Below, piece after piece: positions 6,083-29,312 of a stretch of 64,000 bases of DNA. The DNA is taken from contig CAIZFE010000035.1 in NCBI GenBank assembly GCA_903932145.1, positions 186,001 to 250,000 on the forward strand. Reading direction: 5' to 3'. Within the stretch, counting starts at the first letter, position 1. Each line of letters begins with the position of its first letter. A model generated the notes under the pieces. That model did no database searches. It was not told where the DNA came from and worked only from the letters and a program-made list of their open reading frames with translations. This stretch comes from an uncultured Rhodopila sp. (GTDB lineage Bacteria > Pseudomonadota > Alphaproteobacteria > Acetobacterales > Acetobacteraceae). The position numbers and the translations under genes were made by a program.

Positions 6083-6868
6083 ATGGAAACCTCACCCCCG
6101 CCGCGTCCGGCCGTCGATCCTTTCCCGTTCCTGTACCACCAACTCGTCTATACGCTGACGAGCCTGTTGCCGCCGCCGCTGGATGGCTCGCCCGAGGCAC
6201 TCCGAGCCCGCAATCAAGCCGCTGTTGCCAAGGTGGCGGCGCTGCTGCCGGTCGGCGCGAATGAGCTCGATCTGGCCGCCCAGTGCATCGCCGCCCGCGC
6301 CCAGGCCGAGGAGATGCTGCGGCTGGTGCGCCAGCATAAGGACGACGTCGGGTTGGTGCTGCGGTTGAACGCGCAGTATGGATCGACGGTGCGGACCTCG
6401 CTTGCCGCACACGGCCGCCTGATGCGGGTGCAGGCGCTGCGCCAGAAGCGGGAGGCGGTGGAAGGGGCCGCGACAGCGGACGCCTGGACGGCGCACGTTG
6501 CTGAACAGTCCATGCTGCACGTGGTGGAGCGGAGAGCCAAACCGCCCGAGGCGGCGCGGCCCGGTGTGGCGCCGGCGGTTGGCGTGGAGGAGAGGATTGA
6601 GGAGAACGTATCAGAAAATGGGACAAATTCTCATGGTGTGGCTTTTGAGACGCGGATGAGCGCGCACCCCGGGAGCCAGGGGGCCAGAGGGTCGGATGAA
6701 ACGGCTGTGAACGAGGCGATGGCCGGATTGGTCTTGGCCAGGGTACGTTTGGCCGGCCGGGACTTGCCTGCGAACGGTCACGATGGCCGGGGGCGGGCGG
6801 ACCCAGGCGGCAATGGCAATCACGAGACGGTATCGGCCGGACGCGGTTATTGTCCGGCGTCGCCCTAG
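6083..6868 (+). CDS. Lineage-specific helical hypothetical protein (paralogue of 28510-29145)
   Basis: A 261-residue protein. Residues 1-160 are predicted helical and start with a Pro-rich head ('METSPPPRPAVDPFPFLYHQLV'); the rest is low-complexity and Gly/Ala/Arg-rich. The segment 'LAAQCIAARAQAEEMLRLVRQH...VLRLNAQY...H...RVQALRQKR' matches, position for position, the layout of 'LAADIISCRFQTLEALSDAAQ...VLRLRGGAV...H...LDQVQRDRR' in the protein at 28510-29145, so the two look homologous. I know this type only as unnamed hypothetical proteins in Acetobacteraceae. Its stop overlaps by 4 bp the stop of the convergent TauE-type permease. Function unknown. Confidence 0.7.
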   Translation: METSPPPRPAVDPFPFLYHQLVYTLTSLLPPPLDGSPEALRARNQAAVAKVAALLPVGANELDLAAQCIAARAQAEEMLRLVRQHKDDVGLVLRLNAQYGSTVRTSLAAHGRLMRVQALRQKREAVEGAATADAWTAHVAEQSMLHVVERRAKPPEAARPGVAPAVGVEERIEENVSENGTNSHGVAFETRMSAHPGSQGARGSDETAVNEAMAGLVLARVRLAGRDLPANGHDGRGRADPGGNGNHETVSAGRGYCPASP

Positions 6869-20191: not shown

Positions 20192-20206
20192 GTTCATATT
20201 ACGTTC
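20192..20206. promoter_or_regulatory. Candidate LexA (SOS) box, GTTC-N7-GTTC
   Basis: GTTC (20192-20195), ATATTAC, GTTC (20203-20206) matches the alphaproteobacterial LexA box. It overlaps a plausible promoter on the plus strand, TTGTGA (20174-20179), 17 bp, TATTAC (20197-20202), and lies 67 bp before the VOC gene at 20274. It shares 17 of 18 bases with the box at 29167-29184. Confidence 0.6.
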
Positions 20207-20273: not shown

Positions 20274-20738
20274 ATGTCCGTATCGCCCGTGCCAGCCGGC
20301 TATCACAGCCTGACGCCGTATCTAATTGTGGACGGCGCCGACCGGGCGCTGTCCTGGTATGCGGAAGCGTTCGGGGCGCGCGAACTGATGCGCCTGGCGG
20401 GTCCGGAAGGCCGGATCGGGCATGCCGAGATCGAGATCGGCGACAGTCGCGTCATGCTTGCCGACGAAGCGCCGGTACATAACGCCAGGGCGCCGGGGGC
20501 GTTTGGCGGCTCGCCGGTCAGCCTGCATTTGTATGTCCCCGACGTGGACACGTTGATCGCCAAGGCGGTGTCGATGGGGGCGGAGGTGAAAAGCCAGCCG
20601 GAGGATAAGTTCTACGGCGACCGGATGGGCTCGCTGCTCGATCCGTTCGGCCACACCTGGCACGTCGCGACGCATGTCGAGGACGTCTCGAACGAGGAAA
20701 TCGAACGGCGTCTGGTGGCGATGTCCGGGAAGGGGTGA
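20274..20738 (+). CDS. VOC-family (PhnB/glyoxalase-like) protein
   Basis: A 154-residue vicinal-oxygen-chelate protein. 'SLTPYLIVDGADRALSWYAEAFGARELMRLAGPEGRIGHAEIEIGDSRVMLADE' (in parts) and 'LLDPFGHTWHVATHVEDVSNEEI' are typical of the PhnB-like group; the metal ligands are probably the His of 'IGHAEIEIG' region and later acidic and His residues, which I cannot place with certainty. An AGGAG ribosome site lies before ATG 20274. Members include resistance proteins, but most have unknown substrates. A candidate SOS box sits in the probable promoter, so DNA-damage induction is possible. Confidence 0.88.
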   Translation: MSVSPVPAGYHSLTPYLIVDGADRALSWYAEAFGARELMRLAGPEGRIGHAEIEIGDSRVMLADEAPVHNARAPGAFGGSPVSLHLYVPDVDTLIAKAVSMGAEVKSQPEDKFYGDRMGSLLDPFGHTWHVATHVEDVSNEEIERRLVAMSGKG

Positions 20739-28509: not shown

Positions 28510-29145
28510 TCAAACGGCCTGCTGGCCAACGGCCGGGTTCGTTGGCTGGCCGCCGGGCGAACCCGCCGCACCGGCGCACGTGGCGTGGCGAGCCTGGTGC
28601 TTTTTCAAATTTTCAGCGATACGCTTGGCTGTCTGGCGTTTCTGAAACGATTTCGCCCGGGATTGCTCGCCGCCAGGCTTCGTGGCGGTGTGAATCGCCT
28701 GCCGCACCATTTGAATCAAATCGGCTGTGTCGATTGTCGGAGGGCTGGAGTCAGGTATCATCGGAGCGGAGGCTGCTTCCGGCTGGGGCTGTGACTGGCG
28801 CGCACCAGTTCGGCGGTCCCGCTGAACCTGATCCAGTTTGCGCTGCGACTTATGACCCTCGCGGCTGAGGCCGACCGCTCCGCCACGCAAGCGCAGCACC
28901 TTGTTCAACGACAAATCCGGTTGGGCGGCGTCGCTGAGTGCCTCCAACGTCTGGAACCGGCAACTGATAATATCCGCAGCAAGGCCCAATTCCTCCTCGG
29001 TTTCCGCATGGTAAGCAGAGAGCATCTGGCTCGCGGCGTCCCTGGCAACGATCGTGTCTCCGTTGGCGCCGGTCAGGAACAGAGAGGTGAGGCGCCCCAG
29101 GATCGTGTCCAGAATGGCGCGGGCGACGGTAGTGGGGAGGGACAT
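28510..29145 (-). CDS. Lineage-specific helical hypothetical protein with SOS-box promoter
   Basis: A 211-residue protein. The N-terminal 110 residues are helical ('LAADIISCRFQTLEALSDAA', 'LNKVLRLRGGAVGLSREGHKSQRKLDQVQR') and share their layout with the protein at 6083-6868. The C-terminal 100 residues are Gln/Pro/Ala-rich with a basic helix 'SFQKRQTAKRIAENLKKHQARH' that could bind nucleic acid. No named family. A GTTC-N7-GTTC box lies 24 bp before the start, between TTGCCT (-35) and CATATA (-10), so LexA would block RNA polymerase directly. A DNA-damage-related role is a hypothesis from this alone. Confidence 0.7.
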   Translation of the reverse strand: MSLPTTVARAILDTILGRLTSLFLTGANGDTIVARDAASQMLSAYHAETEEELGLAADIISCRFQTLEALSDAAQPDLSLNKVLRLRGGAVGLSREGHKSQRKLDQVQRDRRTGARQSQPQPEAASAPMIPDSSPPTIDTADLIQMVRQAIHTATKPGGEQSRAKSFQKRQTAKRIAENLKKHQARHATCAGAAGSPGGQPTNPAVGQQAV

Positions 29146-29168
29146 AACTGGAGCGCCTCGGGTTATAT

Positions 29169-29183
29169 GTTCATTTTACGTTC
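29169..29183. promoter_or_regulatory. Candidate LexA (SOS) box, GTTC-N7-GTTC
   Basis: GTTC (29169-29172), ATTTTAC, GTTC (29180-29183) fits the alphaproteobacterial LexA box and is nearly identical to 20192-20206, including the flanks AT before and T after. On the minus strand it falls between TTGCCT and CATATA, spaced 17 bp, upstream of the gene starting at 29145. Confidence 0.65.
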
Positions 29184-29312
29184 TACAGGCAAATTAGGTT
29201 AACATTCTTCAAATATCAAGAATTATTTCCAATAGCTGCAAACGGGTGCCGATACCGTTGACGCCACGCCCCCTTTGGGTTGCAACGGTTGCAACCAAAG
29301 GAAGCCCGTCCG

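Follow-up and report, generated by a model that had tools for sequence, protein, structure and literature searches.

A putative LexA operator upstream of one member of an expanded protein family in an uncultured Rhodopila

The gene at 28510-29145 and its upstream region

The stretch of DNA analyzed here (the window, 64,000 nucleotides) comes from an uncultured Rhodopila sp. The features relevant to this study are the following.

6083 to 6868, forward strand: distant ("group B") member of the superfamily described below (profile A4, E 3.9e-10)
20192 to 20206, forward strand: second GTTC-N7-GTTC box, 67 bp before the next ORF; probably a LexA operator
20274 to 20738, forward strand: ORF behind the second box, which we take to be VOC/glyoxalase-like
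28510 to 29145, reverse strand: gene for a 211-residue family protein (ORF, profile searches, structure model, dN/dS)
29156 to 29159, reverse strand: probable ribosome-binding sequence GAGG
29169 to 29183, reverse strand: putative LexA operator (SOS box) GAACGTAAAATGAAC (sequence, comparison with lexA, relatives, excess in family promoters)
29191 to 29196, reverse strand: probable -10 element TAATTT
29214 to 29219, reverse strand: probable -35 element TTGATA

A sequence-only reading of this DNA had placed a GTTC-N7-GTTC box in front of the 28510-29145 gene. The sequence bears this out: the forward strand at 29169-29183 reads GTTCATTTTACGTTC, which in the direction of the gene becomes GAACGTAAAATGAAC. 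Between the box and the ATG at 29145 we count 23 bp, not the 24 bp first given. The same reading had set the box between a -35 element, TTGCCT (29187-29192), and a -10 element, CATATA (29164-29169). Both words are present with the 17 bp spacing, but they are poorly kept in two family copies from related genomes, L090 (genome G011) and L093 (genome G022): TTGCCT is not kept in either, and L090 has CATCTA in place of CATATA, which is absent from L093. The conserved pair is instead TTGATA and TAATTT, and we therefore rejected the earlier assignment as probably wrong. TTGATA is identical in L090 and is TTGCAT in L093; TAATTT follows at a distance of 17 bp, and the operator begins 7 bp further. Across the -10 region the window has CCTAATTT, L090 CCTAATGT and L093 CCTACTAT. 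Judged from these comparisons, TTGATA/TAATTT would be the active promoter. The probable ribosome-binding sequence lies within CCCGAGG, which is kept in both relatives.

The ORF behind the second box returned no NCBIfam family at E <= 1e-3. It has matches at E <= 1e-40 in 7 of 33 genomes, its own included, and since five of these seven carry an exact box upstream, the repeat at 20192-20206 is probably a second LexA operator.

An expanded family of predicted helical proteins

The 211-residue product had been described as an unnamed, lineage-specific protein. It has no match over threshold in Pfam, NCBIfam, PHROG or PADLOC, and against the same collections the scanned relatives gave either nothing or weak matches below the cut-off. 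It does not stand alone, however: it is one of a large family scattered over the genome, and the box is confined to some of the subfamilies. A search of solved structures by sequence (E up to 10) returned one match, a designed helical protein at E 2.1. The AlphaFold2 model (10 sequences; mean pLDDT 72.7, pTM 0.49; weak after about residue 117) contains helices at residues 9-23, 31-43, 50-73, 80-113, 115-118, 140-155 and 159-191, of which the first four are modelled at fair to high confidence and are followed by a low-confidence linker. The predicted architecture is a four-helix N-terminal domain, the linker and a basic C-terminal helix. The last 60 residues have a net charge of +8; across the family the tails vary by subfamily and some are not basic. 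One helix has conserved arginines (R85, R87 and R95). Our guess is that the family proteins might be adaptors or inhibitors that bind a nucleic acid or protein partner through the conserved LRLR helix and the subfamily tail.

Profile A1 detects 29 copies in the organism's own genome, and the wider profile A4, with all 118 candidates scored, gives 47 matches. These copies were resolved to 48 ORFs, with a broken copy counted twice. The main group was defined as ORFs scoring 38 bits or more (32 ORFs), a threshold set after the scores had been seen. Copy counts in relatives are lower bounds because 12, 13 or 16 candidates were scored per genome. A search of 193 genomes with the single protein sequence found matches in 21 genomes from 3 of 161 genera, with up to at least 17 per genome. 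With profile A1, 29 of 243 genomes match, from 4 of 197 genera, and G046, a genome of another genus, holds at least 13 copies. In a class-wide draw, profile A4 matched 6 of 289 genomes, the own genome included. Nine loci that the window protein found in named genomes are listed under Rhodopila sp. (seven), Acidisphaera sp. S103 (one) and a Proteobacteria bacterium (one); the Acidisphaera copy, in record NZ_LMUJ01000047.1, is boxed. Repeats of about 50-280 bp, dispersed and in part palindromic, lie near several family copies, at the loci L044, L046, L051, L054, L058 and L061.

The group B member of the window, 6083-6868, has no exact box within 200 bp upstream and no box with one substitution within 80 bp upstream. 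Group B (6083-6868 and L193-L206, about 15 copies) has a promoter word of its own, ACTT-N2-TTCC, before 12 of 16 ORFs; that the word is common to the group suggests common regulation by something else.

The gene adjoining 28510-29145 encodes a CCG-domain protein; 30 of the 33 genomes of the genus have it. Besides the own genome, three of the 29 others (G011, G022 and G002) have a family gene on the side where 28510-29145 lies, and all three of these genes are boxed; in the stretch read, the remaining 26 of the 30 genomes have no family ORF beside the CCG-domain gene. The G011 copy, L090, is clearly the orthologue of the 28510-29145 gene. Its locus (L090/L214) shows synteny on both sides, with 93% identity for the CCG protein and 92% for the MFS protein; it falls in the same tree clade, and its box, GAACATACATTGAAC, stands at the same position, -38. 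In G022, synteny extends over the CCG side, with L093 about 0.7 kb from the CCG-domain gene. The tree places neither L093 nor the G002 copy with the window gene, and the two lend support to the operator reading by position only. The expectation that orthologous promoters keep the box is thus upheld by the one clear orthologue; the G022 and G002 copies are boxed as well, but the tree does not support their orthology.

Comparison of the 28510-29145 gene with L090 gave a dN of 0.20, a dS of 0.94 and a dN/dS of about 0.21 (0.12 for residues 1-113 and 0.34 for the tail), about four times the 0.05-0.06 of two neighbouring genes. Purifying selection on the gene speaks for a functional target of the operator, and the excess over the neighbours counts against it.

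The family could be a relic of mobile-element genes, with SOS control serving an element's departure from a damaged host. In the class-wide draw, four of the five other genomes matched by profile A4 encode proteins that end in an HVHVH-like tail. A tail of similar type is seen in the own copy L188, and one HVHVH-tail protein has relatives on 11 plasmids. Dispersed, partly palindromic repeats, up to about 280 bp long, also occur near several copies. Against this, the window protein has no match in 72,556 plasmid and 50,697 phage records and none was confirmed in viral contigs. Around the 29 own copies no type of non-family ORF recurs at more than four loci, in a count that excludes the protein family itself, overlapping frames of family ORFs and arrays; the commonest type, presumably SDR-like from its appearance, is found at four. 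Seven of the 26 relatives that have no family gene beside the CCG-domain gene were read for an empty site; the flanks differ and none is clean. We consider a mobile origin of this kind improbable. DNA comparison showed that the loci of the 29 own copies share the gene with its promoter, family arrays and, near several copies, the dispersed repeats; a common mobile unit was rejected.

The putative operator in the genus and across the family

In the own genome a LexA model search found a single LexA above the family cut-off; across the genus, LexA exceeds it in 28 of 32 genomes. Twenty-eight lexA loci were read, of which one was dropped as its start was not identifiable. GAAC-N7-GAAC precedes lexA in all 27 genes with an identifiable start, the own gene included, beginning 56-107 bp upstream of the start; in 21 of the 27 the box is GAACCAACATAGAAC. 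The same kind of operator occurs at an imuA-like gene, and the assignment of the 29169-29183 repeat to the alphaproteobacterial type of LexA box is therefore supported.

Across the whole genome (6.66 Mb, with the window in its contig C35) GTTC-N7-GTTC occurs 254 times, compared with 80 times for the reversed pattern; 100 of the 254 sites were listed individually. A stricter pattern, GAACAWANNNNGAAC, derives from boxes of the family; the boxes at lexA and at 29169-29183 do not match it. The pattern has 18 matches in the own genome versus 2 for the reversed control. Ten of the 18 precede family genes, a share that is biased upward because of the origin of the pattern. One further site overlaps the first ATG of the imuA-like ORF (NF033429 at E 2.7e-13; 50 bits, below the cut-off of 150), another begins 26 bp ahead of a gene for a PA0069-type radical SAM protein (L086:1527-2702; NF033668, E 1.1e-146), and a third, C73:30783, begins at a distance of 41 bp from the start of a peroxiredoxin gene. 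No named gene could be tied to four of the 18 sites. The strict box C35:39323 (L212:1024-1038) has a family-like promoter, by eye including the -35 region. A profile and region check detected no family ORF behind it, and it may be an orphan promoter.

Among the known SOS genes of the own genome, lexA, the imuA-like gene and the PA0069-type radical SAM gene carry the operator. The sequence-only reading had proposed a comparison with lexA, recA and the imuA-imuB-dnaE2 genes; lexA and the imuA-like gene carry the box, but recA is without a typical one: its locus offers just the atypical GTTCGCAGAAAGTTC, some 180 bp ahead of the match.

A regulator other than LexA, such as a phage-like S24 repressor, might read the GAAC-N7-GAAC sites of the family. 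The own genome does contain a weaker second match to the LexA model (C3:127546-128073, E 7.8e-8), and such below-cut-off matches recur in the genus. This match nevertheless falls below the cut-off, which a single LexA passes, and the operator of the family is of the same kind as that at lexA and the imuA-like gene; we regard control by another regulator as very unlikely. Extra LexA-like repressors were dropped as candidates after five fetched regions gave no meaningful BLAST similarity to the own LexA. ORFs matching only the DNA-binding (N-terminal) part of the LexA model were found in G022, G025, G029 and G008. These four genomes are among those rich in family copies.

Within the 64-kb window the two GTTC-N7-GTTC boxes equal the number expected from shuffled sequence (1.95, sd 1.34), as they would if the box were a short direct repeat that had arisen by chance. 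The family promoters give a different picture. An exact box starts 24-64 bp before the ATG in 14 of the 32 main-group ORFs and in none of the 16 lower-scoring ORFs; these 14 boxes in 48 upstream regions compare with 0.38 expected from the genome-wide frequency. Among half-site orderings GAAC is found 14 times in these regions and the 11 others 0-3 times, and among spacers of 0-16 bp a length of 7 gives 14 boxes and the others 0-4. When all words of the form 4-N(0-16)-4 were ranked on the gene strand of the last 80 bp, GAAC-7-GAAC came first, in 11 of the 32 main-group ORFs. Together with the box kept in L090, these statistics led us to reject a chance origin, which is barely credible. Although the count in the window is at chance level, the comparison across genes and genomes makes the box at 29169-29183 convincing.

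A further six ORFs have, at -36 to -17, a box that deviates from the half-sites at a single base: L175, L179 and the leading genes of the arrays L177, L181, L184 and L185. These four are two-gene family arrays in which the box before the first gene is GAACAAACAGTGAAT three times and GAACATACCGTGAAT once. The first gene of the L185 array scores 31.8 bits and hence belongs to group B despite its one-substitution box.

In four other genomes an exact box precedes 13 of 41 copies, in one case at a distance of 144 bp. These copies were taken from protein searches blind to boxes, leaving out one ORF without a start and one too near the end of its stretch. Our first locus set left out nine ORF rows that had no recognised start; these represent five distinct copies, including a broken gene. 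Of the 64 distinct copies in this set, 24 are boxed in gene orientation. The exact box is missing from 18 of the 32 main-group ORFs, all 16 lower-scoring ORFs and 28 of the 41 copies in the four other genomes; more than half of the family is therefore without it.

We placed 104 copies (41 boxed) on a quick tree, in which 39 of 101 inner branches are open. The box label requires 10 changes there versus 32.5 in shuffles, and none of 500 shuffles was as low, a clustering that near-copies inflate. ORFs were excluded from the tree if they scored under 50, had no ATG or were preceded by less than 110 bp of sequence. Boxed copies fall together by subfamily: the branch of the window protein has 19 of 23 copies boxed, and a sister clade of four copies has no box and, by eye, keeps a similar -35/-10 pair.

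We aligned 25 family promoters on their boxes, restoring by hand four copies without a recognised start. By eye, most rows have TTG near -35 and a CTA-containing -10 directly before the box. No column upstream of the box exceeds 0.6 bits other than -35 (T in 18 of 25), -14 and -12. Within the box, most of the spacer varies, but its third base, on which the boxes had not been selected, is A in all 25. The same base is A in five distinct lexA boxes and T in three of five VOC boxes.

The family promoters are of common descent and the copies are not independent, which raises the question of whether the box is a by-product of copying, an inherited passenger with no present role that spread together with promoter and gene. 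The promoter elements outside the box that the copies have in common would fit such a history, as would the distribution of the box by subfamily, the many copies without it and the four boxless sisters that keep a similar promoter. The constancy of the third spacer base while most of the spacer varies argues against it, as does the retention of the box in the orthologue L090 at a dS of about 0.94 and in far more diverged copies. We consider a passive box unlikely.

A possible SOS-controlled family and its known counterparts

Computation establishes the operator and its conservation, and the family and its expansion. From these comparisons we are largely confident that 29169-29183 is a LexA operator, that DNA damage would free the gene behind it, and that this gene is one of an expanded family under partly common control. 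The operator would span about the first 15 bases transcribed from TTGATA-17-TAATTT, a promoter of sigma-70 type. By established LexA biology, bound LexA would block the gene, and DNA damage, through RecA-triggered cleavage of LexA, would free the promoter. With the operator common to a subset of the family, the SOS response would turn on a battery of paralogues together, whose products would combine a conserved, probably helical N-terminal domain with divergent C-terminal tails. The 28510-29145 product would then be a candidate new component of the DNA-damage response, as the sequence-only reading had proposed.

A further-reaching reading is tentative, and we hold it to be somewhat less probable than its opposite: in this Rhodopila-like lineage the family, amplified to dozens of genes, may be the largest single SOS output, its paralogues, with one helical core and differing tails, forming a combinatorial DNA-damage programme of a kind not seen in model bacteria. 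That at least 14 genes of one family carry the operator suggests that amplifying a single family can reshape the SOS output. The boxed copies provide a defined set of candidate DNA-damage proteins, and the boxless sister clade with its similar promoter and the boxless group B are natural controls.

Among the closest known counterparts are alphaproteobacterial proteins with an HVHVH tail (L129-L132), which profile A4 matches at E-values of 1.3e-17, 1.5e-12, 9.9e-9 and 1.7e-6 and which have a homologous helical domain. The window protein differs in having no such tail, although a related one occurs in the own copy L188. No family name was found for the HVHVH-tail proteins, neither GTTC-N7-GTTC nor GAAC-N7-GAAC occurs in L129-L133, and the protein with plasmid relatives has none in phages. 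SulA and SidA are small LexA-controlled SOS effectors encoded by single genes, with known targets. The family described here resembles them in being small and box-bearing, and differs in comprising many paralogues with divergent tails.

In the accessible portions of the open-access literature we found no report of an SOS-controlled amplified family of this kind; a search of that literature for Rhodopila LexA or for LexA and the SOS response in Acetobacteraceae likewise found nothing. Another close counterpart is the LexA regulon of Caulobacter crescentus. There, according to the available text of PMC12700426, LexA has the motif GTTCN7GTTC, GTTCttgttatGTTC being among the SOS boxes, and binds at 47 SOS genes grouped in 31 transcription units. 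The likeness, as far as the available portions of the sources go, lies in the operator half-sites, the 7-bp spacer and the presence of imuA among the SOS genes (PMC12700426, PMC6120978), and the Caulobacter box GTTCttgttatGTTC resembles family boxes found here, for example GTTCTTGTTACGTTC. The difference is one of gene content: those portions contain no expanded family of this type, whereas here at least 14 genes of a single such family carry the operator.
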